64,000 nt of DNA from Buxus sempervirens. Lineage: Eukaryota; Streptophyta; Magnoliopsida; Buxales; Buxaceae. Shown one piece after another: positions 1-57,312 of this stretch; position 1 is the first letter of the stretch; every line of letters begins with the position of its first letter. The stretch spans positions 1,742,976 to 1,806,975 of the forward strand of contig OX387187.1 of NCBI GenBank assembly GCA_947561395.2, in the 5' to 3' direction. A program made the position numbers and the translations under genes. Below the pieces are notes generated by a model. It made no database searches, had not been told where the DNA came from, and saw only the letters and a program-made list of their open reading frames with translations.

Positions 1-1365
1 TCTGTCGACGAAATCCCTTCTGCAAGACAACCCTTTAGATCAAAACCACCCAATCTTACAGGATATAACATTGTGGATTCGTTCTACAATAGGTGGGTTA
101 ACTCCATAACACCAGAAGATGATGTCTTATGGGATTCTACCAACTTAGGCCATATTCTGCTCATCCCTACCATCCCCTTTAAATGGGAAATTATTGAGGC
201 TTTGATTGGACATTGGGAACCGCAATTAAATCTCTTTTGGTTTTGGGATAAAGAGATGACCCCTGCAGTTAAGGAGATTGAAACCATTCTTAGCTTGAGA
301 TTTTTAGAAAAAGTGGTGAACCCGCTGCTAAAGCCTAACTACAAGAAAGAAGCTTTTACTTTTCCGGGCATGGGGAAGAAGGACCTAAGGGAATCTGACT
401 CCCTACTGACCCTATTCAAGCCTTTTTTGACTGAAAAACTTCTAAGGAGTGAAAACACCCAAGCTCGGTTTAATGCCTTGACATTGATGGTGGTTAATCA
501 ACTACTTTTCCACGAGATGATGATGAGGTGGACTTGGCTCTTATCTCAGTTATATGCCAGGTTAGGGAACGGGAGAGATTGGCCCCTATGATCTTGGCAG
601 GGATGTATCAGGCATTAACTGACTGCTATTTTAGGAAGAAGAAACGCTTTCTTGCATGTGCTCCTATCTTGCAGGTAAGATATGATTCCCCCCTATATTT
701 TTTTCTTTTTTTTTCTTCTTTTTCTTCCTTCTTTTTTTTTCTTTTTCTTTTTACAACCTTCTTGTGAAGCTAAGATAAATTAAAATACTCCCTCTTTTTG
801 TAGCTTTGGTTGCTTGACCACCTGAATCAAATTGTGATGATTGATCGCCGCTTTTCCACAAGAATGAAAGTTCTTGTTCTGATGAGTAACCGGAGATGTC
901 CTAACATCCAAGGCGGCAAGCCGGGTTGGTTCACCTTCTTGGGAACTCTTCAGGATGACTAGGTGAGATGGCCTGACACTTATTAGACAAATCCCAAGAC
1001 AGTGATCAGCTTCAGAGACAGAAACTTCATGGTTCTAGTAGGCTTGAAATCTGCTGTTCTTTATCTTCCTTTGAGGGTCCTTCGGCAGCTTGGAGGAACT
1101 CAGGGGATCATAATCCCAAATGGATATGAGGACTTCTTGGGACCACTTACACCAGCCACCATGGGGCTATGTGCTCGGTTGATGAAGGAATGGTCCTATG
1201 TGCGCTTCATGAGGAGCCCAGTCTTTTCTAAGTCACATGTGAAGGACTACCTTTTCTGGATTAGAGAGCAGGTTCAGAGTCATGCCTCAGTACCAGAGGA
1301 TCCTCCTACTATTCCTGCACCCACTTATGAAGACATATTAGCTTCTGAGAGAGCATCCCACAAAC
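1..1365 (+). pseudogene. Element A antisense gene, DUF7745 family, first part
   Basis: Runs opposite to A's gag-pol, which is on the minus strand. The window opens inside its N-terminus. The protein resembles the plant DUF7745 family: a segment around MTPAVKEIETIL, then a stretch close to LERLAPMILAGMYQALTDCYF, and a later block with LKSAVLYLPLRVLRQLGG. A GT-AG intron fits 675-803; element B has the matching intron at the same protein position. The function of DUF7745 is unknown; the family is often found in plant retroelements. The gene is split by solo LTR G and resumes at 11802. It is a broken fossil with a few breaks. Identity as DUF7745 comes from memory of the family pattern, not from a search. 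Confidence 0.75.
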
Positions 1366-14388: not shown

Positions 14389-15402
14389 TTAATCTCTAAC
14401 CTCGACTTCTAGCGGTTTGATGTCTATTCCTTCTGGAACACTGATCATTGAAGCCAATGTAGCCAAAGCATCTGCAAATTGATTCTTGGCCCTTGGCATA
14501 TAGCTGAAGGAAATTCGAATAAATTTGGTGCTTATTTCTTCCAAATACTGGTGATAAATTCGAATAAATTTGGTGCTTATTTCTTTGGTTTTCCATTCAC
14601 CAGTTGTTTGGAAGATGATAAGACTCGAATCCCCATATATGTCAAGTTCCTCTACTTCATGGTCTAGAGCAGCCTGCAGCCCAATTATACATGCTTCATA
14701 TTCTGAAATATTGTTTTTGGACTGGAATCTCAGCTTTACTGTGATTGGGATATGTGACCCATCTGGCTTGACCAAAACTGCCCCAATTCCATTTCCATTC
14801 ATGTTTGCGGCCCCATCAAAGAACATCTGCCAAGAGCTTTCACTTTCCTCTTCTTCAGTAAATAAAACTGCCTCATCAGGAAAATTAGTCTTTAATAGCT
14901 GATAGTCTGGCAAGGGATACTCAGCTAAGTGATCAGCAATTGTTTGACCTTTAATTGCCTTTTGAGTGACATATTTGAGGTCAAATTCAGAAAGCAACAA
15001 CTGCCATTTCGCCGTTCTGCCAGTTAGTGCCGGTTTCTCAAATAGGTACTTCAAAGGGTCCATTCGGGATATCAATAATGTGGAATGACTAAGGAAGTAA
15101 TGCCTTAATCTTTGAGTAGCCCACACTAAAGCACAACAGATCTTTTCCAAAGGAGAATACTTGGCTTCATATTCGGTGAACTTCTTACTCAGATAGTAGA
15201 TAGTCCTTTCCTTTCGGCCCGTCTCATCATGTTGCCCCAAGACACACCCCATTGACGTCTCCAAAACGGACAAGTACAGAATCAATGGTCTTCCCGGAGT
15301 CGGTGGCACTAGTACAGGTGGATTCAGCAAATATTCTTTTATCTTGTCAAAGGCCTGTTGGCAATCATCATTCCAAACCGTTGGATTGTTCTTTCTTAGC
15401 AA
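14389..15402 (-). pseudogene. Element A RNase H and second RNase H region
   Basis: Carries the gypsy-type RNase H following RT (LILYLSVLETSMGCVLGQHD, YEAKYSPLEKICCALVWA). A second RNase H domain follows, with FFDGAANMNGNG, SEYEACIIGLQAALD and IYGDSSLI supplying the acidic D, E and D positions. A dual RNase H is a known mark of the Tat lineage, which includes Ogre and Retand-like elements. Homologous to 45361-46237 in element B. Broken fossil. Confidence 0.9.
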
Positions 15403-16290
15403 CTTGAATATTGGTTCACAGGTGGCAGTGAGTTATGCTATGAACCGGCTGATGTACTGAATTCTTCCTAGGAAACCACGAACTTCCTTCTCTGTTCTGG
15501 GTGGTGGCATTTCAATAATCGCTTTGGCTTTAGCTGGGTCAATCTCTATTCCCCTTCTGCTCACTATGAATCCCAACAATTTTCCTTATGTAGCCCCAAA
15601 GACGCACTTTCCTGGGTTAAGTCGTAAACTGTATTTTCTGAGTCGGTCAAACACTTTTTTCAAGTTGATCAAATGGTCTTCTTCTTTACAGGACTTGGCA
15701 ATCATATCATCTACATAAACTTCCATCTCCTTGTGGGTCATATCATGGAACAGCGCTGTCATGGTTCTCTGATAGGTTGCCCTGGCATTCTTAAGCCCAA
15801 ATGGCATGACAGTGTAGTGGAAGGTACCCCATGGTGTAATAAAAGCTATTTTTTCTTGATCCTCCTTTGCCATCTTGATTTGATTATATCCAGAGAAACC
15901 ATCCATGAATGAGAATAGGCTATGTACAGCAGTATTGTCGACCAAAAGGTCGATGTGTGGAAGTGGAAAATCATCCTTCGGGCTTGCCTTGTTCAGATCT
16001 CTGTAGTACACGCACATCCTGACTTTCTTATCCTTCTTTGGTACTGGAACAATATTTGCGAGCCACTCGAGGTACGTGGAGACTACCAAAAATCCCGCTT
16101 GGAATTGCTTGACCACTTTATCTTTGACCTTCAGTGTCCATTCAGGTTTCAATCTTCTCAACTTTTGCTTGACCAGCTTAACCCCTGGCAAAATTGGTAA
16201 TCTGTGCAAAACCATGTCAGTATCCAACCCTGGCATATCCCGATACGACCATGCAAATACATCTTTATAATCAACCAAGAACCGTGTCAT
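15403..16290 (-). pseudogene. Element A reverse transcriptase region
   Basis: Typical gypsy RT motifs: RDLNKASPKDDFPLPHID, FMDGFSGYNQIKMA, ITPWGTFHYTVMPFGLKNA and EVYVDDMIAKS with the catalytic YVDD. It copies element RNA into DNA. It follows a long linker after the protease and precedes RNase H. The closest relative in the window is 44700-45360 in B. Broken fossil. Confidence 0.92.
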
Positions 16291-20289: not shown

Positions 20290-20327
20290 TTTATTATATT
20301 ATTTTTTTGTTTATTTTGAAGAATTGT

Positions 20328-20900
20328 TGGAATATTTTAGGGCTTCCAACATATCCCACAAGATATGCATTGGATGGTACAAAAAGACCATCCAAAAAGT
20401 TGTTGGAATATTTTAGGGCTTCTAACATGTCGCACAAGATATGAATTGGTTGGCACGAAAAAAGACTATCCAAAGAGTTATTGGAATATTTTAGGGCTTC
20501 CAACGTCCCACAAGATACGATTTGGTTGGCACGAAAAAGGCCATCCAAAAAGTTGTTGGAATATTTTAGGGCTTCCAACCTCCCACAAGATATGACTTGG
20601 TTGGCATGAAAAAGGCCATCCAAAAAGTTGTTGGAATATTTTATGGCTTCTAACATCCCACAAGATATGACTTGGTTGGCACGAAAAAGGCCATCCAAAA
20701 AGTTGTTGGAATATTTTAGGGCTTCTAGCATCCCACAAGATATGACTTGGTTGGCACGAAAAAGGCCATCCAAAAAGTTGTTGGAATATTTTAGGGCTTC
20801 CAACATCCCACAAGATACGATTTGGTTGGCACGAAAAAGGCCATCAAAAAAGTTTTTGGAATATTTTAGGGCTTCCAACATCCCACAAGATATGATTTGG
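20328..20900 (-). repeat. 75-bp hairpin repeat in A leader
   Basis: About seven and a half units of 72-78 bp. On A's sense strand each holds GTTGGAAGCCCTAAAATATTCCAAC-type sequence: arms GTTGGAA and TTCCAAC around a loop starting GCCCTAAAA. The same hairpin occurs once at the gag end of the arrays in C (about 28013-28037) and B (about 38106-38131). The long open frame through the units is a repeat artefact. Confidence 0.9.
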
Positions 20901-20904
20901 AATT

Positions 20905-21128
20905 AAGGCTTCCAAAGCCTCCTGAAATTACTCAGGCTTTTAGGAGCCTATGAAGGGTTCTAGAATCACGCAAGCTTCTAGGGGCTTATGAGGATAAAGA
21001 TCTGAAATTTCAGGCTTTCAGATGCCCACAGAAATTTTGGTTAAAAATCTGAAATTCAAAGGCTTTCAGAGGCCTACAGAAATCTTGGTTAAGAACCTGA
21101 AATTCAAAGGCTTTCAGAGGGCCATGTA
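20905..21128 (-). repeat. Degenerate hairpin units in A leader
   Basis: Four to six degenerate units related to the CTGAAA-GCCTTTGAA-TTTCAG hairpins of B and C. One unit on the sense strand has arms ATCTGAAA / TTTCAGAT, another CTAGAA / TTCTAG, so the stems differ but stay paired. Confidence 0.75.
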
Positions 21129-21578
21129 AAAAAAAATTTCTGTTTTTTTTTTTTTTTACCTTTTTGATTTTTTAGACTTTTGATTTGATTTTTTCTTCTT
21201 CTTTTTTTTTTTTTTGTTTTTATTTTTGAGATTTCTTATTCAAGAACAGATTTTTAAATTGAATTGTTCTTATCAAACTTCGGAGATTTAAAAATGATTT
21301 GAAATTCTTTTTCTCATTTTTCTATTAGATTGCACTTCAAGAATGTGTTTTGCCACATATTTTCCTTTATCACTTCCACTCTTTCAGTTAAGTTACCTGT
21401 TCAACTTAGGTAAAAATTTTATAAAAAAAAATGCTTAACCCTTTAATTTGAGTGAGTTTATAAGGATTTGTATGTTTTTTACTCTTATTAAAGTATTTAT
21501 CATCTTTTATATCACTTAAGAGGTTAAAAGAACCAAGTTTGTTGGCAAAAGTTGCTGAAATAGCAATAAAATCCGTAA

Positions 21579-21683
21579 AACCGCATATATAGTGCGGACT
21601 AGCCATGTCCGCATTTAAAATGCAGTCAGGCTATGTCCGCAAATAAAATGCGGATATCCCATGTCCACAAATGAAATGCGGTT
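21579..21683 (-). promoter_or_regulatory. 7+7 half-site array, A leader
   Basis: Fifteen consecutive 7-base blocks (105 bp): eight half-sites alternating AACCGCA/GTCCGCA type with TGCGGAC/TGCAGTC type, separated by seven 7-base spacers. Register is exact throughout. A's half-site differs from the TACGGGC/GCCCGTA used by B and C. Function is unknown; see findings. Confidence 0.85.
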
Positions 21684-22984: not shown

Positions 22985-23002
22985 TCCCCAGTGGAGTCGC
23001 TA
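22985..23002 (-). other. Primer binding site of A (tRNA-Arg)
   Basis: The plus strand reads TCCCCAGTGGAGTCGCTA, which matches the 3' end of a plant tRNA-Arg (TCCCCAGTGGAGTCGCCA, from memory) at 17 of 18 bases. It sits two bases from the end of the 5' LTR, the same spacing as in B, C and E. A tRNA-Arg primer fits the Ogre/Tat lineage. Confidence 0.88.
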
Positions 23003-23004
23003 GT

Positions 23005-23745
23005 TGTAAGACATGGAAAATCAATCTAGTGACTTCCTATCATCACACGAGCTCAATCAAAATAACATGGAGTTGCCACCATTCCTTTTTAAGGTGTGAA
23101 TGGACACCCAAAATAATCAAATAAAAAATAATAAAAGAAAACAAATTAGAGTAAAAATAACTCTAATTCAAAAAGTAAACCAGAGATGGGTAATGAGATT
23201 AGGTTATGAAGAGGGGAAGGTGTTAGGCACCCCCATTCATCCACGCAAGGTGGTTGCCAAGTATTGTTCATGTTTTTAAAAAGGCTTGCTAATAAAAATC
23301 AAAACAAAAGAAAAAGGAAAAGATTGTATGGCTTATTTCCATGTGAATGATTCAATTAATAAAAGAATGTATGGCTTATTTCCATGTGAATGATTCAATT
23401 AATTCTGAATCCTTCTTATGAAAATAAGAGCCATTTCTTAGGCTTCACGATTGACTAAAATCAAGATAAAACAAATCTAAAGTAAAAATTTCAGAAATCT
23501 GGCTTTGAGTTAAATCCTTGAAATCTAAGAATAAAATAGGAAAATATTATTTTTATAAAATATTGAAGAATTGAATCTGAACCATCCAGAGCATAGATCT
23601 AGCCCATATTTCTCATTAGATAAAAAAAAAAAACAAAACCAAAAATACCCACGTTGATGAAAAACATCAAAAAGGGAGAGCTGAGATTGTAGGGTCTTCT
23701 TTTAAGAATGAAAAATGACTCAAAAACCAACTCATGAAACCATAG
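23005..23745 (-). repeat. Element A 5' LTR, part next to primer site
   Basis: Reverse complement of the 3' half of the family LTR. It ends CTTACA at the primer-site side and is cut at 23745 by insertion of B. The other part lies at 57313 onward, which joins to it across the CATAG duplication. It diverges more from B's and C's LTRs than those do from each other, so A is older. Confidence 0.88.
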
Positions 23746-24577
23746 TGTAGACACCCCAAATTGCACTACAAAAGGAGAAAATAATTGAAAACATGTAATT
23801 GGGGTTTAAAACAGGTCAAAAATACATAAAATCTGATCAAGCATGCATTGCCCGTATTGTACTTGCAAGCTAGTCACGCCCGAATTTTGTATACGGGCAC
23901 GCAGTCCCTGTAATGCAAATGCGTACACCACTTGCTCGCAATACATTTACGGGCACATTAAATTTGTGCGAATTTGATCTTTGCTCGATTTCTGAGCCTT
24001 ATCTTTAGTCTAATATATCTCTTGGTGAGCGAATTTGTTTATTTATTCGTTCGAAATATCCTTGTTGGCCATGGATGGGCATTATCCCTATTTTTAACCC
24101 AATCTGGTGGAATCCTGGTATATCCTTCTGGACCAGCCTTACCCTTGGGTTTGCCTATAAATAGAGGACTTCTCCTCAAGCAAAGGGCCACGAAATTTTT
24201 AAGTCTAAGGAGCTCCAAGTGAAGAGAAGAATCCCTGCTGCTCTGCTTGCTCAATCCAGGTAAGTCCTTTTTCCCTTTTATTTTCTATCTTCAATTCTAG
24301 AAATAATAGGATCTTCTCCATTGCTGTAGAATAAGGCCTTCTTTTATTCTGTATTCCTAAACTTGTCCCTAAGTACCTCAAGAGTCACTCTAGCCGTAAA
24401 ACGTGAAGAGAGAGCTATGGGAAAGGGGAACAGGTGGATCCCTAGAATAGAACCCCATAGTCTGTTTTTATCCTTTCTTTTAGAATAAAACCTTTGATTG
24501 TATTTGTATCACTAAACCTATCTCTAAGTACCTCAAGAATCCTCTCTAGTCGTAAAACGTGAAGAGAGAGCTAGGGG
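23746..24577 (+). repeat. Element B 5' LTR, first part
   Basis: Starts TGTAGACACCCC. Holds a 7+7 half-site array at 23850-23954, a TATA box TATAAATAG at 24156-24164, and a strong splice-donor match CCAG/GTAAGT at 24259/24260. It is cut at 24577 by element C. Confidence 0.93.
23850..23954 (+). promoter_or_regulatory. 7+7 half-site array, B 5' LTR
   Basis: Fifteen 7-base blocks (105 bp) in exact register, beginning GCCCGTA and ending TACGGGC, with spacers such as TTGTACT, TAGTCAC and TTTTGTA. It lies about 200 bp upstream of the TATA box. Confidence 0.85.
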
Positions 24578-25510
24578 TGTAGACACCCCAAATTGCACTA
24601 AAAATGAGAAAATAATTGAAAATATTAATTGGGATTTGAAACAGGTCAAAAAAAGTGTAAAATCTGGCCAAACTGGTTTTTAAATTCTCATTTTTAAACT
24701 GTTTTTCATTATTGAGAGAAGACCCTACGGTCTAAATTCTCCCCTTTTGGTATTCTTCATCAACGTGGGTATTTTTGGTTTTGATTTTCAGATTTAATGT
24801 GAAATTTGGGCTTTATCTATGCCCTGGACTATTCAAGTTCAATTTTGAAATATTTTATAAAAATCATATTTTTCTAGATTTCTAGAATTTGACTTGAAGC
24901 CAGATTTTTTGGATTTTTCACCTTAAATTGATTTTATTTTATTTTATTTCAATTTTGTTTTGATCATGAAACCCTAGGAATGGTATGATCATATTTGAAA
25001 GTTCTGGATCAATCAGACTATTCATATGAAAAAACCATATATTTTTGCCCTTTTTTGTGATTTTGTGTGATTTTTATAGCAAGATTTTTCCTTTATTTTC
25101 AACATGAACAATACCTGGCAACCACCTTGTGTGGATGAATAGGGGTGCCTAACACCTTCCCCTGTTCATAACCTAATCCACTTACCCATCTCTGGTTGTT
25201 TTTTTTAGGAGGGATATTTTGCCCTAAAATTTGCCTTTTGTGCTTATTTAATATTTTGGTGTCCATTCACACCTAAATTGAATGGTGGCGACTCTTTGTT
25301 TAATATAATCCCGTGAGATGATTGAGGAAATCATTAGATTGATTTTTTCCCATGTCTCACAACTTATTTTGCCCTAAAATTTGCCTTTTGTGCTTATTTA
25401 ATATTTTGGTGTCCATTCACACCTAAATTGAATGGTGGCGACTCTTTGTTTTATTTAATCCCGTGTGATGATTGAGGAAATCATTAAATTGATTTTTTCC
25501 ATGTCTTACA
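24578..25510 (+). repeat. Element C 5' LTR
   Basis: Starts TGTAGACACCCC and ends ATGTCTTACA, followed by AC and the primer site. It is about half the length of C's 3' LTR. Its 3' end carries the 150-bp tandem duplication also present in the other LTR. Confidence 0.9.
25217..25510 (+). repeat. 150-bp tandem duplication at end of C 5' LTR
   Basis: Two copies starting at GCCCTAAAATTTGCC (25221 and 25371) and each ending near CATGTCTCACAAC or CATGTCTTACA. The 3' LTR has the same pair (about 34757-35050), so it was inherited by both LTRs. B's LTRs have a single copy. The first copy includes the ACAACT of the LTR/primer-site junction. Confidence 0.88.
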
Positions 25511-25512
25511 AC

Positions 25513-25530
25513 TGGCGACTCTGCTGGGGA
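25513..25530 (+). other. Primer binding site of C
   Basis: TGGCGACTCTGCTGGGGA, two bases after the LTR end. It is complementary to a tRNA-Arg 3' end of the TCCCCAGCAGAGTCGCCA type. B has TGGCAACTCTGCTGGGGA at 36034-36051 and E has the same at 62777-62794. Confidence 0.85.
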
Positions 25531-26017
25531 ATTGTGGATTTAAGCCTTTTGGTGTTTTTGTTCATGTTTTTGATATTTTTGGATTTGCTTGCTATTTGGT
25601 GTTCTTAAGCATGTGGGATAGGTTGTAAATCTGATTTATTGCTTAAGAATTCATGGGGGTAGAAACATGCTTAATTCTGATTTATAGGATTGTTTCTAGA
25701 AACATGCGTAGGGGAGGTTTATTTTGATAAACCATGCTTATTTCTTGCTGTATTTTAATATGCATGTTCTAATTTTCAGCATGCTTTCTATGGTGTATTT
25801 TGGATATATAATATGAGCATATGTTGACATGATTTGGATGATTTTTATGAGCATGTTTAGGTGCTATAGGATTGCTTTATTTACTTGTTTATTTTAAATA
25901 TGCTTTCCTATTATGCCTTGGTTTGTTTATGCATGGCTGCGAAAAGAGTGGCAAGGGTTTGGGACGTTGTGAATGTAACCTATTTTTACAATGCACTGTG
26001 CACCTTTTATTTTTACA

Positions 26018-26124
26018 CAGCCTACCCTTAACCTATAGGAAGTTGAACCCGAATGTGTGTAGCTTGGCGCAACGAGGTCGATACTTCGGAAAGCGAAAGT
26101 GAAAACATTCACCTTAGAACTTTG
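26018..26124 (+). other. Conserved leader block, C copy
   Basis: Counterpart of 22311-22417 in A and 36541-36645 in B. Includes AGCTTGGCGCAACGAG and ends near CACCTTAGAACTTTG. The GAATGT and ACATTC segments about 55 bases apart could pair. Confidence 0.8.
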
Positions 26125-26733
26125 AGCTAATGATGTGATGATAACGTGGATCTGGGATTCTGGTCATCACTAGGCTTGAGTGCTAAGTTGCCATTAAGCC
26201 AAAACCCAAAACCCCTACGCTTGAAGGTGGAGTTACACATTTTTGGCTAAAGTATACAATTACGTGGGGATATGGGTTTGTATGATTGTGGGAAGGCCGT
26301 ATGCATGGCTTACAAACCAGGGCATAATGCGGATGCCATATTGAAGGTAAACAAGGTAACAAGGTAATCCTATTGTTTTGCATTATTTTCATGTTATAGG
26401 GGTGTCATGGTGCCCATTGGTTCGGGATAAAATTGGTCCCAAAATATGCATGTTTTTAAAATTGGTACAGCCCATAGGAAGAGTTCTTAACTCTGTTTAG
26501 AATCAATCCTACCCTATGTTCACACAAGAGGCAACAGAAGGGTGCCAAATTCTTGAGTATGATGTCAATTTGGAGGGTATATGTGCCCTCCTACGCATGG
26601 GTTTTAGCAAAAAGGCCAAGGTCCACTTTGGGACAGTTTAGAAGCTCTGCACTGGGTGAACCGTATGTTTGGATGAACAATGAAAGTGATCAGACCATGT
26701 AAAAACTGGAAAAACATAACAGGGTTCCGTAAA

Positions 26734-26865
26734 ACCGCATTTAGTACACGGGCTGGGCCTGACCGTATTAGTTATACGGGCTAGGCTCGCCCGTGTTTTC
26801 CATACGGTCACGGCTTGCTCGTAATCTGAATACGGGCAGGGCTGGACCGTACTGTGTATACGGTT
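26734..26865 (+). promoter_or_regulatory. 7+7 half-site array, C leader
   Basis: Ten half-sites (AACCGCA, CACGGGC, GACCGTA, TACGGGC, GCCCGTG, TACGGTC, GCTCGTA, TACGGGC, GACCGTA, TACGGTT) alternating in orientation, with 7-base spacers and at most one 1-base slip. Function unknown. Confidence 0.85.
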
Positions 26866-26994
26866 TTCTCGGAATATTCAACTTTAATCAGTTTTTCCCA
26901 CTAAAATATTCTTTTAACCTTTAAATAATGATAAAGGGAAACAAGTTTGAATAAAATGCTTCAAAAAAAAAAACAAACAAAATAATTAAAAGAA

Positions 26995-28040
26995 AAAAAA
27001 TGTAAGAGAAAGGTTCCTTGGGCTTCTGAAAGCCTTTGAATTTCAGACTTTTTCAAAACTCTTGGGCTTCTGAAAGCCTTTGAATTTCAGATTTTTCAAA
27101 AATCCTGGGCCTCTGAAAGCCTGTGAATTTCAGATTTTTCAAAAAATCCTCGAACCTCTGAAAGCCTTTGAATTTCAGACTTTTTTTCTCAAAAACTCCC
27201 TGGGCCTCTGAAAGCCTTTGAATTTCAGACTTTTATCAAAAATCCCCGGGCCTCTGAAAGCCTTTGAATTTCAGATCTTTTGGGCCTCTGAAAGCCTTTG
27301 AATTTCAGACCTTTTTTCTTTTGGGCCTCTGAAAGCCTTTGAATTTCAGAACTTTTAGGCCGTCTAAAAGCCTCTGAATTTTAGACAATCATCTTTTGGG
27401 CCGTCTAAAAGCCTCTGAATTTTAGACAATCATTTCTTTGGGCCGTCTAAAAGCCTCTGAATTTTAGACAATCATTTTTTTTTGGGCTGTCTAAAAGCCT
27501 CTGAATTTTAGACAATCATTTTTTTGGGCTGTCTAAAAGCCTCTGAATTTTAGACAAATCATTTCTTTGGGCCGTCTATAAGCCTCTGAATTATAGACAC
27601 ATATCCTTTGGGCAGTCTAAAAGCCTCTGAATTTTAGACAATCATATCCTTTGGGCCGTCTAAAAGCCTCTGAATTTTAGACAAATCATTTCTTTGGGCC
27701 GTCTAAAAGCCTCTGAATTTTAGACAATCATTTTTTTGGGCCGTCTATAAGCCTCTGAATTATAGACACATATCCTTTGGGCCGTCTAAAAGCCTCTGAA
27801 TTTTAGACAAATCATATTCTTTGGGCCGTCTATAAGCCTCTGAATTATAGACACATATCCTTTGGGCCTCTGAAAGCCTTTGAATTTCAGACTTTTTTCA
27901 AAAATATCCCTGGGCCTCTGAAAGCCTTTGAATTTCAGACTTTTCCCAAAAATTTCTTTGGGCCTCTGAAAGCCTTTGAATTTCAGATTTTTTTCTCTTT
28001 TTGTGGGACCTGTTGGAAGCCTTAGAATATTCCAACAATT
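26995..28040 (+). repeat. Hairpin tandem array in C leader
   Basis: About 23 units of 35-50 bp. Each holds a hairpin with a GCCTTTGAA or GCCTCTGAA loop. Stems are CTGAAA/TTTCAG in the outer units, GTCTAAAA/TTTTAGAC in the central block, and GTCTATAA/TTATAGAC in three units near 27570, 27746 and 27827. The last unit has GTTGGAA/TTCCAAC. Units keep pairing despite changed stem sequence. Open frames inside are artefacts. Confidence 0.9.
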
Positions 28041-28233
28041 CAAAAAAAAAAAAAAAAGGAAAAGAAGCAAATAAAGAAAGAAACAAATCCAAACTCGTGT
28101 TCACCCAGCTTGCACATAGGCATACATAGGCATGTGAATGAGATTAAATTGGCACTAATATTTTCTCTTTATTTTCCAGGTACCAAGTACACTTGCAACC
28201 ATAGCTCCTGTAATCAGATCAAGAGCTTGCGCC

Positions 28234-29946
28234 ATGAATCCCATTGAGACTGAAGTTGATGCTCCTCACCCAGATATTGTCTTGCTTCAAGAGCAAGTGG
28301 CAGGACTAGCCCGAATGTTAGAGAACATATTGGCCGTACAAGCCCAACAAGTGCAGGCCCAACAAATGCAGGCCTAGAACCAAGCATCAACTTCCAACCC
28401 TGCACCTCCACCCCAAATCAATATTCCACCCCCAGTGCAACCAATTCCTGAACCCATCCATGAAACCACTTATGAACCTATGGTGACCAAGGATGAAACA
28501 GTTGAATCAGAAAAGGTTAAGGAAAAGGAAAAAATGAGGGAAGAAATGGAAAAGAAGTTCATGCAAAGACTGGAAATGATCCAGGATGAACTAAGGGAAG
28601 TAGAAGGGGAAAACAACTTTGGGGGCACCAATTTTGAAGACCTGTGCCTATACCCCCATGTTAACCTGCCGGCTAAGTTTAAATGCCCAGATTTTGATAA
28701 ATATGATGGCACTGGCTGCCCAATGAGCCATTTGAAGTTATACTGCGGGGCTTTATGCCATTTTGGCCGGGATGACGGCATACTAATTCAACTCTTCCAG
28801 AGGAGTTTAACTGGAGCTGCTTTGAAGTGGTTTACCACTTTGGATCATGGGAAAATAAGAAGGTGGAAGGATTTAGCAGATTCCTTTTTGGCACAATACA
28901 GGTTTAACTCGGAGATTATACCAGATAGGTATGACATGATGAGGATGGCGAAGAGAAATGATGAGACCATAAGGCAATATGCTAAAAGGTGGAGGGAGTT
29001 GGCTGCACAAGTCAAGCCACCCGTGGGAGAACCAGAAATGATTTCAACTTTCATCATGACATTGGGGCAACCATTTTATAGTCACTTGGTGGGTCAAACT
29101 ACCACCAAATTTGCTGCCCTAGTGCAAGTGGCAGACAGAATTGAAGATGGGATCAAGTCTGGGAAAATAGCTGATTACTCTGCAGTGTTGAACCAGGAAG
29201 CTTCCACTACTTTCTCTACACAGAAAAAGGAGAATGGTAATGGAAGAATAAAGAATGAAGAAGGGAGAGAAGCAGAAGTGAATATGGTGCAACTTCCCAA
29301 GGAACCCTTTCAAATCAATGCCCATCCACCTCCTATCAAGCCAACCCATCAATTTACTTTGCTGCCTATTCAAATTAATGTCCCTTCTGCACAGCCTGTG
29401 AAGGAGGAAACAGAAGTAAGGAAGAGAAGGGAATTTTCCAAACTGCCTATGAGACAATCTGAACTTTTGCCTACCTTACTTCAGAAGGGTTATGTGGCTT
29501 TGAAGTTGCCAAATCCTCATGCAAGTAAGGGGAAGGGTTATAATTCATCTGCAATCTGTAATTATCATATGAGCACTCCAGGGCACACCACTGATCATTG
29601 CTTGGCCCTAAAGCATGCAATCCAGGATTTGTTGGATAATAACTCTTTATCATTCAATTCAGTCACTCCCATCCCACCTACTGATAACAATGGGGCAGAC
29701 AGCTCAAATGCAATAGGGGCAATTTTCTCTGGAGAAAGAAGATTTGACCCTTCTCAGCTTATCACTCCTATTGGTCAAACAGTCAGGGTTTATCTTAAAA
29801 GAAATGCTCCTGGTTATGAGCAGGAAGGCTTGCCTCACTCAACAGGAGAAAGAAATTATCAGAAAAAGGAAGAAAAGTCAACTTTTGCCTTTGAGAACAG
29901 GGGCAGTTTTCGAACTCCCATGTTCTTTGAAAAGAAACTCCTATAA
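28234..29946 (+). pseudogene. Element C gag
   Basis: Begins at the ATG at 28234, 55 bases after the splice-acceptor-like site. Contains the gag core (YDGTGCPMSHLKLYCGALC, LTGAALKWFTTLDHGKIRRW, MISTFIMTLGQPFYSHLVG) and the later CNYHMSTPGHTTDHC knuckle-like segment. Most of its length is open, over 500 codons. It is the best preserved gag in the window and forms the particle protein in this lineage. It is not followed by pol. Fossil, nearly whole as gag. Confidence 0.9.
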
Positions 29947-32900: not shown

Positions 32901-33213
32901 TTTTCTCCACACTTTTCAGGAGATCAATGTTTATATTAGTTGTAAGTTGCAAGGATTGCCACCTTACCCACTTTTATTTAAAAATTTTGTCTCAAATCTC
33001 ACTTCATAGCCCACAAGTGCTCAGTGAGAGGAGAGAGGAGGATTTGGCCCTTAAGCTGAGGGACTTCTTAGCAAATCTTCCACAATCAATTTCGTTTTTT
33101 ATAAAATCATCCATTGGATCCTTGCAAAATGCAATTGGTTAGACAAAAGTCTCAGAAAGTGCAATTGGTGGGTCTTTTTTGCTCTCTGCTTGTAATTGGT
33201 TCCAATTACCAGC
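29947..33213 (+). other. Element C post-gag spacer
   Basis: No enzyme gene. The first part (about 30040-30290) is a degenerate match to the acidic linker of B near 44260-44520. Then comes the post-pol spacer shared with A and B, with GAAA-type polypurine runs at 30560-30585, 30860-30905, 31235-31285 and 32015-32085. The part at 32870-33227 matches the 3' region of B at 55160-55499. Small open frames are purine-run artefacts. Confidence 0.8.
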
Positions 33214-33223
33214 AAAGAGGGGG
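33214..33223 (+). other. Polypurine tract of C
   Basis: AAAGAGGGGG four bases before the 3' LTR. Element B has the same tract at 55486-55495. It is the usual plus-strand primer of LTR elements. Confidence 0.85.
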
Positions 33224-33227
33224 CAGC

Positions 33228-35050
33228 TGTAGACACCCCAAATTGCACTAAAAATGAGAAAATAATTGAAAATATTAATTGGGATTTGAAACAGGTCAAA
33301 AAAGTGTAAAATCTGGCCAAACTGGTCATGACCGTATTTTGTTTACGGTCTGGTCATACCTGCAGTTGATATACGGTCACGGCGTGCCCGTATTAATAAT
33401 ACGGGCAGGGCGCGCCCGTAATATATATACGGGCACAGGGGTCTTTGTGCGAATTTTACCTTTTTTATTTTTGAGCCTTATCTGCACCCAAATATCTCTC
33501 TTGGATAAGCGAATTCTCTTATTTATCTGTTCGAATTATCTCATTTATCCTTGTGGATAAAGGATTGGCATGATCTTGTGTTTAACTCAAACTGAAACTC
33601 TATCTTGCCAAATCTTGGACCAACCATGCCCTTGGGTGTGTCTATAAATAGAGGCTCTCTCCTCTAGCTAAGGGCCACGAAAATTTGAAGTCCAAGGAAT
33701 TCTAAGAAGCTCCAAGAGAGGAGAAAGAACTCCTGCTGCTCTGCCTGCTCAATCCAGGTAAGTCCCCTATCCCTTTTTATTTTCTGTCTTCAATTCTAGA
33801 AGTAATAGGATCATCTCTATTGCTGTAGAATAAGGCCATATCTGTTTTTTTGTATACCTAAACTTGTCTCTAAGTACCTCAAGGGTCTCTCTAACCGTAA
33901 AACGTGAAGAGAGAACTAGGGGAAAGGGGAACAGGTGGATCCGTAGGGTAGACCCCCATGTGCTATAATCTGTGAGATGTGGCTGTTTTAAATATCCTTA
34001 TCATGTTTTAATGCTTTTTATGATGTATCTGAATGAATAACATGAATCTATGATGTTTATAGCATAAGATCCCCACTTTTTGATAAAATTTGGATTTTTC
34101 ACATATTTGCACCTACAGCACTGTTTTCGTGATTTTTGTGGTTTTAGGCTAGGATCTTGGATTTATCATGATCAATATGATAGATCTGAATCCAGAAGCC
34201 TAAAAGTAAATTCTAGGGTTTCATGAGATGGTTTTTAAACTGTTTTTCATTATTGAGAGAAGACCCTACGGTCTAAATTCTCCCCTTTTGGTATTCTTCA
34301 TCAACGTGGGTATTTTTGGTTTTGATTTTCAGATTTAATGTGAAATTTGGACTTTATCTATGTCCTGGACTATTCAAGTTCAATTTTGAAATATTTTATA
34401 AAAATCATATTTTTCTAGATTTCTAGAATTTGACTTGAAGCCAGATTTTTTGGATTTTTCACCTTAAATTGATTTTATTTTATTTTATTTCAATTTTGTT
34501 TTGATCATGAAACTCTAGGAATGGTATGATCATATTTGAAAGTTCTGGATCAATCAGACTATTCATATGAAAAAACCATATATTTTTGCCCTTTTTTGTG
34601 ATTTTGTGTGATTTTTATAGCAAGATTTTTCCTTTATTTTCAACATGAACAATACCTGGCAACCACCTTGTGTGGATGAATAGGGGTGCCTAACACCTTC
34701 CCCTGTTCATAACCTAATCCCCTTACCCATCTCTGGTTTTTTTTTTAGGAGGGATATTTTGCCTTAAAATTTGCCTTTTATGCTTATTTAATATTTTGGT
34801 GTCCATTCACACCTAAATTGAATGGTGGCGACTCTTTGTTTAATATAATCCCGTGAGATGATTGAGGAAATCATTAGATTGATTTTTTCCCATGTCTCAC
34901 AACTTATTTTGCCCTAAAATTTGCCTTTTGTGCTTATTTAATATTTTGGTGTCCATTCACACCTAAATTGAATGGTGGCGACTCTTTGTTTTATTTAATC
35001 CCGTGTGATGATTGAGGAAATCATTAAATTGATTTTTTCCATGTCTCACA
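33228..35050 (+). repeat. Element C 3' LTR
   Basis: 1823 bp. Holds a 7+7 array at 33330-33434, TATAAATAG at 33643-33651, splice-donor match CCAG/GTAAGT at 33757/33758, and the 150-bp end duplication. Ends ATGTCTCACA. Confidence 0.93.
33330..33434 (+). promoter_or_regulatory. 7+7 half-site array, C 3' LTR
   Basis: Fifteen 7-base blocks, exact register. Several neighbours are perfect inverted pairs: GACCGTA/TACGGTC, GCCCGTA/TACGGGC twice and TACGGGC/GCCCGTA. Confidence 0.87.
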
Positions 35051-35055
35051 AGGGG

Positions 35056-37253: not shown

Positions 37254-37386
37254 AACTGCATTTATTACACAGGCTCAGCTCGCCCGTATTGGTTATACGG
37301 GCTAGGCTCGCCCGTGTTCACTATACGGTCACGGCTCACTCGCAATTTAAATGCGGGCAAGGCCGGACCGTATTGTATATGCGGTC
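37254..37386 (+). promoter_or_regulatory. 7+7 half-site array, B leader
   Basis: Nineteen 7-base blocks (133 bp) in exact register, ten half-sites from AACTGCA to TGCGGTC. GC-rich spacers (TAGGCTC, ACGGCTC, AAGGCCG) alternate with AT-rich spacers (TTGGTTA, ATTTAAA, TTGTATA). Confidence 0.88.
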
Positions 37387-44711: not shown

Positions 44712-45360
44712 TGCCAGTGCCAAAGAAGGATTGAAAGGTCCGAATGTGCGTAGACTACAGAGATTTGAATAAGGCAAGCCCAAAAGATGATTTTCCACTT
44801 CCACACATCGACATCTTGGTGGACAACACGGCTGTACATAGCCTGTTCTCATTCATGGATGATTTTTCTGGGTATAATCAAATTAAGATGGCTAAGAAAG
44901 ATCAAGAGAAAACAGCATTCATTACACCTTGGGGTACCTTCCACTACAGTGTCATACCATTTGGGCTTAAGAATGCTGGGGCAACCTACCAATAGGCCAT
45001 GACAGCCTTATTCCATGATATGATCTATAAGGAGATGGAGGTCTATGTGGATGATATGATAGCCAAATCATGTGAAGAAGAAGACTACTTGATCAATTTG
45101 AAGAAGGTGTTTGACTGGCTCAGGAAATACAGTCTCAGGCTTAACCCTGCAAAATGTGTCTTTGGGGCTACATCAGGAAAATTGTTGGGCTTTATAGTAA
45201 GCAGAAGGGGAATTGAGATTGACCCAGCCAAAGCTAAAGCAATCATTGAAATGCCATCACCTAGAATGGAGAAGGAAATTCATGGTTTTCTTGGAAGGAT
45301 TCAGTACATAAGCCGGTTCATAGCACAGCTCACTGCTATCTGTGAATCAATCTTTAAGCT
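44712..45360 (+). pseudogene. Element B reverse transcriptase region
   Basis: Motifs VDYRDLNKASPKDDFPLPHI, FMDDFSGYNQIKMA, TPWGTFHYSVIPFGLKNAG and EVYVDDMIAKS. The LLGFIVSRRGIEIDP segment that closes gypsy RTs follows. Fossil with a few breaks. Confidence 0.92.
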
Positions 45361-46237
45361 TCTGAGAAAGAATAACCCGACGGTCTGGAATGACAATTGC
45401 CAAGAAGCCTTTGACACAATAAAGGAGTATTTATTGAATCCACTTGTGCTAGTACCACCAACTCCAGGAAAACCATTGATTTTATACTTGTCAGTTTTGG
45501 AGACGTCAATGGGGTGTGTCTTGGGACAGCATGACGACACAGGTAGAAAGGAAAGGACGATTTACTACCTAAGCAAGAAGTTTACAGAATATGAAGCAAA
45601 GTATTCCCCTTTGGAAAAGACCTGTTGTGCCTTAGTGTGGGCAACTCAAAGACTGAGGCACTATTTCCTTAGTCACTCCACATTATTGATATCCCGAATG
45701 GATCCTCTAAAATATCTATTTGAAAAACCGGCTTTAACTAGCAGAACAGCAAAGTGGCAGTTGTTACTCTGTGAATTCAACCTCACCTATATCACTCATA
45801 AGGCAATTAAGGGTCAAGCCATCACTGATCACTTAGCTGCACACCCTTTACCAGAATACCAACCTTTGAAGACTAATTTTCCTGATAAGGCAATTCTGTT
45901 TACTGAAGAAGAAGAAGGTGAAAGCTCTTGGCAAATGTTCTTTGATGGGGCCGCCAACATGAATGGAAATGGAATAAGGGCAGTTTTGATCAAACCAGAC
46001 GGGTCACACATCCCAATCGCAGTGAAGTTAAGGTTCCAATGCACAAACAATATTGCAGAATATGAAGCATGCATAATTGGATTACAAGCAGCTTTAGACC
46101 ATGAAGTGGAGGAACTTGACGTATATGGAGATTCGAGTCTTATCATCTTCCAAACAACTGGTGAATGGAAAACCAAGGATCGCAAACTGATCCCCTATCA
46201 CCACTATTTGGAAGAAATAAGCACTAAATTTACTTGA
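45361..46237 (+). pseudogene. Element B RNase H and second RNase H
   Basis: Same pair of domains as A: LYLSVLETSMGCVLGQHDD with YEAKYSPLEKTCCALVW, then FFDGAANMNGNGI, EYEACIIGLQAALD and VYGDSSLII. Dual RNase H supports Tat lineage placement. Confidence 0.92.
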
Positions 46238-48597: not shown

Positions 48598-50329
48598 CTA
48601 ATCTCTATTCCCTAACTGCTCCTCAAGCTCCCTAATCCAAGCTGCCTGAGTTGCAATGATTCCAGAAGCTCCCTCTGCATCAGGATCGCTCAAAAAGGAG
48701 ATGATCTCATCTGAAAGAGAGTGCTTGATCTTCAATGCCCTAAGGTCAGCCAAGGAATCCTGATATTTCTTCCGCATCGCTCGGACTTCAAAGCGACGAG
48801 CCTGTCTTTGTTCTTCAAGTTTCTTCTCCATGGCAATGCGGCAATACCTCTGCTCTTCAAGTTGTCTCTCCAGATCAATACCCTTTATCCTGAGCTCTTG
48901 TGCTTCTCGTACCTATATTTGTTGAAGCCGCTTGTGGGTTGCCCTTTCAGACTCCAGGATGTCCTCATAAGTAAGGGGAAGAACTGCAAAAGGATCCTCT
49001 GGTACTGGGGCATGACTCTGCACCTGTTCTTTGATCCAGAAATGATAGTCCTTCACATGGGACTCAGAAAAGACTGGACCCCGCAGAAAGCGAACATAGG
49101 ACCACTCATTCATTAATTGAGCATTTAGCCCTATGGTGGCTGGTGTAAGTGGCCCTAAGAAGTTCACATATCCAGTTGGGATCATAATCCCCTGGGTTGC
49201 TCTAAACTGCCGAAGAACCCTCAAAGGAAGATAGAGAACAGCAGATTTCAAGCCTACTAGGACCAGAAGGTTCTTATCTCTGAAGTTGATCACTGTCTCT
49301 GGATTGGGCTGATAAGTGCCATGTCATCTCACCTAATCATCCTGGAGAGTACCCAAGAAAGTGAACCAGCCCTGCTTGCCGCCTTGGATATTAGGGCACC
49401 CCCTGTTACTCATCAAAATAGGAACTTTCAATCTTGGAAAGAAGCGGCGAGTTATCTCTTCAACCTGATTCAGGTGGTCAAGCAACCAAAGCTGCAAAAA
49501 AGGGGAGTATTTCAATTTATGTCAAAAGAAAAGAGAAAAAAAAGAGAAAAAAAGAAGAAAGAAAGAAGAAAAAAAAAGAGAAAAGAAAAAAAAGAAAAAG
49601 AAAAAAAGTAGTATTTATTTCCTTTTTTACCTGTAGGATAGGGGTGCAGGCAAGGAAGCGTTTCTTCTTTCTGAAATAGCAGTCAGTCAGGGCCTGGTAT
49701 ATCTTTGCCAGGATCATAGGGGCCAATCTCTCAAGTTCCCTAACCTGGCAGATAACTGGGATGAGAGCCAAGTCAACCTGATCGTCACCCCGTGGAAAGA
49801 GCAACTGGTTGACCACTATCAAAGTTAAAGCATTAAACCGGGCATCCTTGTCCTCACCCCTTAGAAGTTTTTCAGTCAGAAAGGTCTTAGACAAGGTCAA
49901 CAGTGTATCAGAATTTCCTAAGTCCTTCTTCCTTATACCCAAGAATGTGGAGGCCTCCTTTTTGTAGCTAGGCTTTAGGGGCGGGTTAACAACTTTTTCA
50001 GAAAACCTTAAGCCAAGGATGGTTTCAATTTCTTCTATGGTAGGAGTCATCTCTTTGTCATCAAAACGGAAGAGATTCAATTCAGGTACCCAGTGTCCAA
50101 TCAAAGCTTCAATGATTTCCCACTTAAAGGGAATTTTAGGGATGTGTAGGATGTGGCCTAAGTGGATGGAATCCCAACAAATTTCCTCATCAAGGGTCAT
50201 GGAGTTAACCCATCTATCATAGAAGGAATCCACAACATTTTACCTGGTGAGATTAGGAGGTTTTGATCTAACGGGTTGTCTTGCAGGAGGAGATCCATCG
50301 ACAGAAGAGAAAGGGGCGAGGGAAGCCAT
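48598..50329 (-). pseudogene. Element B antisense DUF7745 gene
   Basis: Start ATG at 50329, end at 48598. Sequence begins MASLAPFSSVDGSPPARQPV, then MDSFYDRWVNSMTLDEE, EMTPTIEEIETILGLRF, NALTLIVVNQLLFPRGDDQV and LERLAPMILAKIYQALTDCY, all in the DUF7745 pattern. A coiled-coil-like tail ends IRELEEQLGNRD. A GT-AG intron fits 49492-49630 and has a strong pyrimidine run. It is convergent with pol. A has the same gene in the same place, so the gene belongs to the element family. Function unknown. Fossil with a few breaks. Confidence 0.8.
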
Positions 50330-50464: not shown

Positions 50465-50583
50465 TACGAGCATGGCATGTCCGTATAGAGAGTGCGGACA
50501 CACTGTGACCGTAAAAAATTTACGGGCAGAGTGCGCCCGCATTAACATTACGGGCACGGCTTGCTCGTAACATAAATACGGTT
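50465..50583 (-). promoter_or_regulatory. 7+7 half-site array upstream of antisense DUF7745
   Basis: Seventeen 7-base blocks (119 bp) in exact register: TACGAGC, GTCCGTA, TGCGGAC, GACCGTA, TACGGGC, GCCCGCA, TACGGGC, GCTCGTA, TACGGTT. It lies about 135 bp upstream of the ATG at 50329 on the gene's strand. Confidence 0.85.
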
Positions 50584-55499: not shown

Positions 55500-57307
55500 T
55501 GTAGACACCCAAAATTGCACTACAAAAGGAGAAAATAATTGAAAACATGTAATTGGGGTTTAAAACAGGTCAAAAACACATAAAATCTGATCAAGCATGC
55601 ATTGCCTGTATTGTACCTGTAGGCTAGTCACGCCCGAATTTTGTATATGGGCACGCAGCGCCCGTAATGCAAATTCAGACACCATTTGCCCGTAATACAT
55701 TTACGGGCGCATTAGATTTGTGCGAATTTGATCTTTGTTCGATTTCTGAGCCTTATCTTCAGTCTAATATATCTCTTGGTGAGCGAATTTGTTTATTTAT
55801 TCGTTCGAAATATCCTTGTTGGCCATGGATGGGCATTATCCATATTTTTAACCCAATCTGGTGGAATCCTGGTATATCCTTCTGGACCAGCCTTACCCCT
55901 GGGTTTGCCTATAAATAGAGGGCTTCTCCTCAAGCAAAGGGCCACGAAATTTTTAAGTCTAAGGAGCTCCAAGTGAAGAGAGGAATTCCTACTACTCTGT
56001 TTGCTCAATCCAGGTAAGTCCCTTTTCCCTTTTATTTTCTGTCTTCAATTCTAGAAGTAATAGGATCTTCTCCATTGCTGTAGAATAAGACCTTCTTTTA
56101 TTCTGTATTCCTAAACTTGTCTCTAAGTACCTCAAGAGTCTCTCTAGCCGTAAAATGTGAAGAGAGAGCTATGGGAAAGGGGAACAGGTGGATCCCTAGA
56201 ATAGAACCCCATAGTCTGTTTTTCTCCTTTCTTTTAGAATAAAGCCTTTGATTGTGTTTGTATCACCAAACCTATCTCTAAGTACCTCAAGAATCCTCTC
56301 TAGCCGTAAAACGTGAAGAGAGAGCTAGGGGAAAAGAGAACAGGTGGGTCCGTAGGGTAGACCCCCATGTGCTCTAATCTGTGAAATATGGCTGTTTTGA
56401 ATATCCTGATCATGTTTTAATGGTTTTATTTTGAATCTAAATGAATCATATGAATCTATGATGTTTATAGCATGAGATCCCCACTTTTCTCTAAAATTTG
56501 GATTTTTCACATATTTGCACCTACAGCACTGTTTTCGTGATTTTTGTGATATCAGGCTAAGATCCTGGATCTATCATGATCAATATGGTAGATCTGGATT
56601 CAGAAGCCTGAAAGTAACTTCTAGGGTTTCATGAGGTGGTTTTTGAATCATTTTTCATGTTTGAGAGAAGTCCCTATGGTCTAAGTTCTCCCCTTTTGAT
56701 GTTCTTCATCAACGTAGGTATTTTTGGTTTTGATTTCTTGATTTAATTTGAAATTTGGGCTATATCTATATCCTAGACTGTTCAAGTTCAATTCTGCAAT
56801 ATTTCATAAAAATCATATTTTTCTAGATTTCTAGAATTTAACTTGAAGCCAGATTTTTTAAGTTTTCACTTTATTTAGGTTTTATTTGATTTTCTCTCAA
56901 TTTTATTTTAATCATGAAACCCTAAGAATGGTATGATCATATTTGAAAGTTCTGGATCAATCAGGCTATTCGTATGAAAAAACCATACACTTTTGTCTTT
57001 TTGTGATTTTTCATGATTTTTGTAGCAAGCCTTTTTTCTTTGAAAAACATGAACAATGCCTGGCAACCACCTTGTGTGGATGAATAGGGGTGCCTAACAC
57101 CTTCTCCTATTCATAACCTAATCCCCTTACCCATTTCTAGTTGTTTTTTTTAATAGGGTTATTTTTACCCTAAATTTGCCTTTTTGTGATTATTTGATAT
57201 TTTGGTGTCCATACACACCTAAACAGAATGATGGCGACTCTTTGTTTTTTAACCAATCCCGTGTGATGATCAGGAATTTATTGAATTGATTTTTTCCATG
57301 TCTCACA
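55500..57307 (+). repeat. Element B 3' LTR
   Basis: 1808 bp, TGTAGACACCC to ATGTCTCACA, with CATAG after it. Contains a 7+7 array at 55604-55708, TATAAATAG at 55910-55918, splice donor CAG/GTAAGT at 56013/56014 and the internal GATGGCGACTC motif near 57233. Confidence 0.95.
55604..55708 (+). promoter_or_regulatory. 7+7 half-site array, B 3' LTR
   Basis: Fifteen 7-base blocks, 105 bp, exact register, GCCTGTA to TACGGGC. It aligns block by block with 23850-23954; substitutions do not disturb the register. Confidence 0.87.
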
Positions 57308-57312
57308 CATAG

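Follow-up and report, generated by a model that had tools for sequence, protein, structure and literature searches.

Tandem 21-bp palindromes in Tat-type retrotransposons of Buxus sempervirens: possible operator arrays for a dimeric regulator

Tat-type Ty3/gypsy retrotransposons of Buxus sempervirens carry arrays of 7-base half-sites of the form TRCGGNC, which alternate between the strands at an exact 7-base gap. The arrays occupy four kinds of place: the U3 region, the leader, a region preceding the 3' LTR, and the promoter of an antisense gene encoding a plant mobile domain (PMD/DUF7745) protein, where they lie a short way ahead of the TATA box. What repeats is in fact a 21-bp palindrome around an AT-rich centre (GNCCGNA-N7-TNCGGNC), which recurs every 28 bp and is joined to the next unit by a GC-richer linker of 7 bases; each array contains two to seven units. 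Judged from the sequence, the arrays probably act at the DNA level as protein-binding sites, and we give a probability of about one half to the more specific reading that they serve as operators for a regulator acting as a dimer, which may be the PMD protein itself. The analysis started from a stretch of 64,000 nucleotides, here called the window, and was extended to loci of the source genome, which comprises 676.5 Mb in 247 contigs.

Register and composition of the arrays

The window contains nested Ty3/gypsy elements, and self-comparison fits three of them, named A, B and C (Table 1). The two parts of the 5' LTR of element C match the 3' LTR to 95.2% and 96.6%; the stretches matched there have 5 bases in common, which would fit a target-site duplication. 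The 5' LTR of element B (24578-25511) is shorter than its 3' LTR (33228-35050) and lacks the U3 array, apparently as the result of an internal deletion. Elements A and C possess a second RNase H-like domain beside the RT-RNase H, a combination that we take to be the signature of the Tat lineage and by which both elements are assigned to it. An additional antisense ORF between pol and the 3' LTR, a frequent but not universal feature of Tat elements, is present in C. Element A also contains tandem repeats of around 76 bp with 88-92% identity at 20319-20900, and further tandem repeats of around 90-93% identity lie at 4326-4700 and 6001-6400.

Table 1. Elements, coding regions and half-site arrays in the window
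Feature	Position	Strand	Description
Element A		-	PBS-like site 23002; LTR part 23002-23745; from self-comparison
Element B	~24578-35050		Inserted in 5' LTR of C; PBS-like site 25513; 3' LTR (inferred) from 33228
Element C		+	Lies in LTR of A; 5' LTR 23746-24577 and 35051-36031; PBS-like site 36034; 3' LTR ~55500-57310
RT-RNaseH and second RNase H-like domain (RVT_3/RNase_H), element A	14392..15432	-	Pfam
RT, RT-RNaseH and second RNase H-like domain, element C	44996..46234	+	Pfam
gag-like frame, element B	28378..29943	+	Retrotrans_gag 6.9e-12
Antisense frame, element C	49520..50239	-	DUF7745 1.4e-20; plant mobile domain (PMD) 1.2e-13; antisense to gag-pol
DUF7745-like frame	1..588	+	Weak match (3.1e-4), below curated cut-off
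Leader array, element A	21579..21683 (105 bp)	-	8 half-sites, class II (TGCGGAC); ~1.32 kb past PBS-like site 23002
U3 array, 5' LTR of element C	23850..23954 (105 bp)	+	8 half-sites; 104 bp from LTR start 23746; TATA-like box 24156 ~200 bp downstream
Leader array, element B	26733..26865 (133 bp)	+	10 half-sites, i.e. 5 AT-centred units, class I (TACGG); 1.22 kb past PBS-like site 25513
U3 array, LTR starting at 33228 (inferred 3' LTR of B)	33330..33434 (105 bp)	+	8 half-sites; 102 bp from LTR start
Leader array, element C	37254..37386 (133 bp)	+	10 half-sites; 1.22 kb past PBS-like site 36034
Promoter array of antisense PMD gene, element C	50465..50583 (119 bp)	-	9 half-sites
Two arrays of 4 half-sites	55049-55097 and 55104-55152	+	6-base spacer between them; ~350 bp before 3' LTR of C
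U3 array, 3' LTR of element C	55604..55708 (105 bp)	+	8 half-sites; LTR starts at 55500
U3 remnant, element A	58077		Score 15.3, inside the shuffle range

All arrays named in the first-pass annotation were recovered in place and at full length; the two short arrays in front of the 3' LTR of C were absent from it. The named arrays reach chain scores of 55-74 (raw chains, some of which include weak end half-sites), compared to a maximum of 25 in ten local shuffles of the window. A stricter scan, which compares 7-base blocks at a 14-bp step for alternating complementarity and assumes no motif letters, placed the arrays at 21579, 26747, 33358 and 50465 above the maximum of 50 shuffles and those at 23850, 37254 and 55604 below this threshold. 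Across the whole window and without any motif model, the distances from CCG to CGG peak at 14 bp (24 pairs), followed by 16 pairs at 42 bp, which is three times 14, and the distances from CGG to CCG peak at 14 bp as well (16 pairs; next 10). The fixed 7-base gap, the strand alternation and the 28-bp period described by the first-pass annotation are borne out, and the 14-bp register emerges even without a motif model.

The letters of the motif had to be revised in part. The half-site TACGGGC or TACGGTC is correct for one class of arrays, but not for the array at 21579, which has TGCGGAC. Likewise, the spacers do alternate between AT-rich and GC-rich, with GC contents of 20% for the AT spacer and 49% for the linker in the first 43 arrays collected, but the linker is better described by A-N-G-S-C-N-T than by the proposed ACGGCNN. 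The 311 half-sites of these 43 arrays have the composition T(95%) R C(93%) G(89%) G(95%) N C(78%). Three letter classes occur, TACGG(G/T)C (class I), TGCGGAC (class II) and TNCGGTT (class III); positions 2 and 6 are linked within a half-site (Fisher p = 1.6e-18, kinship of copies not corrected). Arrays of class III with the same 7/7 register were observed outside elements A, B and C at 58860-58908 and in two other loci (L040:4067-4143 and L014:2388-2450).

In the 676 Mb genome, the AT-centred pair GMCCGTA-N7-TACGGKC occurs at 19,345 places and its reversed control at none, and the GC-centred pair TACGGKC-N7-GMCCGTA occurs at 11,813 places and its control at 6. The same half-sites in direct orientation are found at 3 places (2+1) versus 4 (3+1) for the control. 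Triplets of the TGCGGAC type, searched with each gap allowed to vary from 0 to 14, are present 159+170 times (control 0), and 96 of the 100 matches listed have the total length expected for 7+7. The strict inverted orientation and spacing of paired half-sites are therefore found genome-wide. Loci L001-L034 and L046-L075 were fetched by motif, L035-L040 were taken at random and L041-L045 lie around earlier loci; among the six random stretches of 10 kb, one (L040) contains an array, which belongs to class III.

The loci L001-L075 and the window yielded 84 arrays with a score of at least 22 and at least three half-sites (116 were found, 32 of which were contained in others and dropped). Neighbouring pairs are not all equivalent, in contrast to what had been proposed: 81 of the 84 arrays start with a CCG-type half-site and 80 end with a CGG-type half-site, that is, on AT-centred units, and 77 have an even number of half-sites. 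An array is thus almost always a whole number of 21-bp units; the same tally for the first 43 arrays gave 41 starts, 42 ends and 40 even numbers. Strong neighbours within 40 bases are separated by exactly 7 bases in 203 of 231 cases from CCG to CGG and in 140 of 160 cases from CGG to CCG, where the copies are related and counts are not independent events, the GC-side spacing of motif-fetched loci is partly ascertained, as are both sides in class II loci (gaps of 0-14 allowed); no such ascertainment affects the AT-side spacing of class I loci or any figure from the PMD set described below. Neighbours in the same orientation lie at 21 bases in 39 of 74 cases, i.e. with one weak half-site in between. 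In 23 promoters found by protein search, and not ascertained by motif, the 7-base gap is present in 93 of 104 pairs from CCG to CGG and in 58 of 84 pairs from CGG to CCG, with another 7 at 6 bases; the remaining cases were left unsorted, with some half-sites among them due to chance. Linkers one base short (6 bases) were also noticed on the GC side at a constant place within a family (55091-55110, L046, L047, L063 and the 7 PMD-promoter gaps), which indicates that linkers can slip while AT-centred units keep their 7 bases. Loss of phase upon comparison of more copies had been set beforehand as the observation that would speak against the register; the comparison was run and the phase was retained.

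Placement in the elements and association with the PMD gene

Between the LTR start and the U3 array lie 102-104 bp in the window (three LTRs) as well as in L002, L009, L011, L012, L018, L023, L025 and L031, and 92 bp in L043. TATA-like boxes are located around 180-210 bp beyond the U3 array in the window, L011 and L012; L001 and L003 are exceptions, as their arrays adjoin a TATA-like box, in L001 at a distance of 560-700 bp from the beginning of the LTR. In the leader, the arrays follow a PBS-like site at 1.22-1.33 kb (25513, 36034, 23002, L008 and L015), and a third set is positioned around 330-350 bp upstream of the LTR start (55049-55152 in the window, L023, L031 and L043; around 180 in L009). 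Several arrays were assigned to one element by their position within loci of 3-8 kb (L015 and L018 being adjacent loci), and in 9 of 9 elements with at least two scored arrays the majority base at half-site position 2 is common to all of them, a count that left out the 3' array of L043, which has mostly G at this position, and the U3 remnant of element A at 58077.

The fourth place is the promoter of the antisense PMD gene. In element C, the array is followed on the minus strand by a TATA-like sequence, TATATAAA, around 36 bp downstream, 22 bp past a degenerate last half-site; an in-frame stop separates an upstream ATG-initiated stretch from the piece with the PMD domain. The weakly matching frame at the beginning of the window is presumably the antisense gene of element A, because 1-1363 matches 50305-48932. 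Five motif-fetched loci resemble the 50465 region, and in four of them (L014, L020, L024 and L030) an array, a TATA-like box and a PMD-type coding start follow one another in this order, as they do in element C. The coding sequence of L020 is broken off soon after its start, and the fifth locus, L005, retains no coding part; Pfam supports PMD in L024 and L030 and gives no such support for the short piece of L014.

The association was also approached from the protein. A DUF7745 profile search of the genome gave 118 scored matches among 5751 candidates; every third match was taken, and 901 bp upstream of each of these 39 were examined. With the original motif and threshold, an array is present in 17 of the 39 upstream regions and in 0 of 390 shuffles. 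All 17 lie within -424 to -287 of the match start and end 287-306 bp before it, and the TATA box of class I PMD promoters is located 22-23 bp past the array in 14 of 14 cases. When T was allowed at position 7, a post hoc widening chosen after class III sequences had been inspected, arrays were found in 23 of the 39 regions; the weakest of these, L093 (23.9), scores below the top of the 39 shuffle maxima (27.5, L085; 20 shuffles each) and was counted by its same location. Arrays precede 23 of 26 matches that start at profile position 18-20 and none of the 13 that start at 5-11. No array was called for 16 of the 39 sampled genes, namely for 13 genes of another DUF7745 group and for L076, L094 and L113. 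The 13 genes of this group, which lack an array within 901 bp upstream, mostly have open frames of 483-516 amino acids (one of 415), and four of their upstream regions have GATGAAAGA-type repeats in common.

In a tree of 31 PMD pieces, whose bootstrap values are not fully settled, the class I rows and window element C form one clade (99/97). The class II rows (L030; L024 with window element A) form a grade beside class I and not a clade, and the class III rows fall outside the I/II clade (98/99). Three of four array-less rows make up a separate clade (100/100), whereas the fourth, L113, is placed among class III. Class III arrays were seen with PMD genes outside the I/II clade in L089, L093, L104, L106-L108, L110, L112 and L114. 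This link between array class and PMD gene is confounded by descent, as array and gene travel on one element and the elements compared are related. The PMD frames are under purifying selection: among frames of four elements, dN/dS is 0.05-0.33 in five of six core pairs, the sixth being saturated. A protein search with the PMD piece returned 0 of 3714 candidates at E <= 0.001. An AlphaFold model of the piece, built from a four-row alignment, has a mean pLDDT of 44 and thus offers no structural support for DNA binding by it.

Protein binding and its alternatives

Inverted half-sites that vary independently and occur at one spacing, in tandem and just upstream of a TATA box are the pattern left by dimeric DNA-binding regulators. 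A phased protein-binding array, one of two explanations offered by the first-pass annotation, agrees with the strict spacing and orientation throughout the genome, with the promoter-proximal positions and with half-sites that vary independently of their neighbours; binding as such stays a prediction. Each AT-centred palindrome would bind one symmetric protein dimer, and two to seven tandem sites at 28 bp could lead to cooperative, density-dependent binding. The period corresponds to 2.67 helical turns, so that successive dimers would be exposed on different faces of the DNA and three units would complete eight turns. The arrays would thereby mark the places from which the element is controlled: the U3 promoter and the leader, the sequence ahead of the 3' LTR, and the proximal promoter of its antisense PMD gene.

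The most economical trans-acting factor would be the element-encoded PMD/DUF7745 protein or a complex containing it: arrays are present at the PMD promoter as well as at the other control regions, and the shared base at position 2 makes the PMD protein the simplest candidate. We rate the chance that the PMD product or its complex is the binder at slightly below even. It might control its own promoter and the LTR promoter, either as an activator or as an anti-silencing factor. Binding by a protein, its dimeric state, its identity with the PMD product and the direction of its effect are all inferred. It is tempting to speculate about a self-encoded circuit of Tat elements, in which the antisense PMD gene stands under its own operator array, its product binds the matching arrays in U3, leader and 3' region and activates or shields the element, and motif classes and protein clades diverge together; this complete scheme is put forward more tentatively than the identity of the binder.

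The same pattern would follow from linkage by descent. A host factor, the main rival, would explain most of the data equally well. A dimeric host transcription factor could recognize CGG-type half-sites, in which case the arrays would be enhancers copied to each promoter of the element and PMD merely one of the genes so driven. The promoter-proximal placement and the set distance to the TATA box in class I PMD promoters speak for such a factor, and paired half-sites around 7 bases apart are familiar from plants: the VOZ site GCGTNx7ACGC occurs in the literature, and the everted repeats bound by ARF proteins have a similar arrangement. Enhancer repeats in LTRs that are used by host factors are known as well, for instance in Tnt1. 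However, no plant factor with such a half-site was recognized among those considered (VOZ, ARF, LBD and others). Furthermore, the classes follow the lineage of the element at array positions that are not homologous; a factor that evolves with the element fits this more easily, although descent alone could do so too. A host factor might also be titrated by tens of thousands of sites. Overall, we regard a host factor as a serious explanation, to which we nevertheless assign only about a one-in-three standing among the readings considered.

The second proposal of the first-pass annotation, a chain of mutually exclusive hairpins, did not survive. Such a chain in the genomic RNA might serve packaging, dimerisation or a contact between the 5' and 3' ends; a unit can indeed fold into a hairpin whose stem has at most 7 bp and whose loop has 7 bases, and arrays occur both in the leader and close to the 3' end of the RNA. 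However, neighbouring half-sites are no more complementary than half-sites re-paired within the same array. The agreement of AT-side neighbours is 0.819 compared to 0.823 (sd 0.004) after re-pairing (84 arrays, 269 pairs), that of GC-side neighbours is 0.806 compared to 0.815 (sd 0.005; 56 arrays with at least two such pairs, 164 pairs), and no single position covaries by more than 1.2 sd above the null. Under a looser null, position 7 of the GC side did exceed expectation (0.85 versus 0.73; 0.807 versus 0.752, sd 0.013), because that null took in half-sites at array ends, which are members of no GC-side pair; once the null was restricted to half-sites that pair, the values were 0.787 and 0.797 and the excess was gone. 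RNA pairing would favour G.U pairs over A.C mismatches, yet on the sense strand of the element their numbers are equal within error, 64:67 (p = 0.86) and 43:46 (p = 0.83), in the 37 of 43 arrays with an assigned sense, which argues against RNA stems. Moreover, the arrays just upstream of the TATA box of the antisense gene lie outside the transcript driven from it. RNA hairpins were rejected on the lack of covariation, the lack of a wobble bias and the lack of an Rfam match in the window, and we consider them very improbable.

A second repeat in the same leaders, around 130-150 bases past the arrays, behaves differently. At 27014-28000, 37517-38090 and, reversed, 20993-21176, it consists of tandem hairpins of the form stem-GCCTYTGAA-stem, whose stems are of the types CTGAAA/TTTCAG, CTAAAA/TTTTAG and CTATAA/TTATAG, with both sides changing together. 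Among 57 matches (around 19 of them misregistered), the inner triplets are AAA/TTT in 30 and TAA/TTA in 3. This repeat is a candidate for an RNA structure near gag, and the two-sided changes found in it indicate that a covariation signal was detectable.

A functionless minisatellite, in which a palindromic 28-mer was spread and homogenised by slippage and by amplification of the element, would explain the 28-bp tandem period, the variable number of units and the identical units within some arrays (L059 and L073). A simple form of this explanation is disfavoured, since half-sites keep their motif across arrays while spacers vary, and since the arrays of different families occupy matching kinds of location. 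The leaders of B and C point in the same direction, as their half-sites (62/70) match better than their AT spacers (26/35) and GC spacers (21/28; flanks 243/298 and 87/98). The two LTRs of C show the opposite, with 45/56 identical positions in half-sites compared to 27/28 and 19/21 in spacers and 102/104 and 288/300 in flanks, which we read as decay of methylated CpG after insertion. Rapid decay of inserted copies, combined with conservation between families, would suggest selection on active copies. We hold the minisatellite to be a shade less probable even than RNA hairpins.

Equally improbable is a methylation or silencing target, in which dense CG and CCG recruit host silencing, since CG density alone needs no exact alternating 14-bp spacing, even though the nine window arrays are enriched in CG (83 per kb compared to 16.5 outside) and CGG/CCG (62 compared to 9.7 per kb) and the LTRs of C show CpG-type decay; its converse, a device to escape silencing, merges with the operator-array explanation.

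Relation to known systems and biological meaning

Tandem protein sites in the leader of an LTR retroelement are known from the gypsy insulator of Drosophila; however, these Su(Hw) sites are known from one place only, are bound by a host zinc-finger protein and function as an insulator. The BII repeats of Tnt1 are repeated boxes upstream of the TATA box in U3; they are not known to have the alternating palindromic register or copies at the other promoters of the element.

In its logic, the closest system is VANC of the VANDAL transposons, whereas in the anatomy of the element the antisense genes of Grande, RIRE2 and Retand come nearest. In Arabidopsis, VANDAL21 encodes the anti-silencing protein VANC, which binds tandem motifs in the non-coding parts of its own element (Hosaka et al. 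2017, PMC5735166), a system also treated by Sasaki et al. 2023 (PMC10398659). The likeness comprises a transposon-encoded protein, a motif repeated in the non-coding regions of the element, types that differ between related families and a density that is thought to matter (PMC5735166). A repeated family-specific motif in non-coding regions is found in the Buxus elements, too; a system of the VANC type would in addition have a protein that binds this motif and takes away DNA methylation. However, VANDALs are DNA transposons and VANC contains DUF1985, for which Pfam scans of 26 frames gave no match here, the present element encoding PMD instead. The VANC motif YAGTATTAY is not described as a palindrome in that text, unlike the present site (PMC5735166), and binding of VANC was shown by experiment, whereas for the present arrays it is predicted from the sequence.

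The aORF-3R genes of Grande, RIRE2 and Retand are likewise antisense and located between pol and the 3' LTR; a regulatory role has been proposed for them, their function is unknown, and an own promoter was reported for gene23 of Grande (PMC7264820, PMC11963269). According to the parts of these papers considered, they differ in having TRP28 or other domains and family-specific tandem repeats, and those parts do not speak of a palindromic array common to promoter, U3 and leader. An antisense protein with TRP28 (PF04195) is encoded in 97% of the clusters of the Retand lineage surveyed there (PMC11963269); in the Pfam scans of the 26 frames, TRP28 was not detected and the antisense frames gave PMD/DUF7745, smaller or broken frames lying outside the scan.

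PMD proteins of the PMD-A clades are encoded by Ty3/gypsy elements, and it has been speculated that PMDs which MULEs have captured act against silencing (Ikeda et al. 2017, PMC5418596; Nicolau et al. 2020, PMC7156037). These gypsy PMD-A proteins and the host proteins MAIN and MAIL1 resemble the present case in the PMD proteins of Ty3/gypsy, and no cis site is given for a retrotransposon PMD in the portions of these papers seen. The 'DOWN' motif of Arabidopsis, which has been connected with PMD genes (CATGCAGTTT, MORC1 promoter), as quoted there, differs from the array motif. A limited survey of partly accessible open-access literature brought up no such array in print.

The presence of an abundant symmetric site at the promoter of the PMD gene and at the other control regions of the element makes the role of PMD accessible to a simple test of binding. 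Should a host factor turn out to be the binder, the source genome would contain tens of thousands of transposon sites for it. If the PMD protein binds, this would provide a concrete model of self-control for abundant elements, with a bearing on the origin of the silencing proteins MAIN and MAIL1. A self-encoded circuit, if true, would be the LTR-retrotransposon counterpart of VANC in VANDALs, and MAIN and MAIL1 would be host relatives of such a regulator. Taken together, the arrays look like a self-control switch of the element and give a little-understood antisense gene a testable role.
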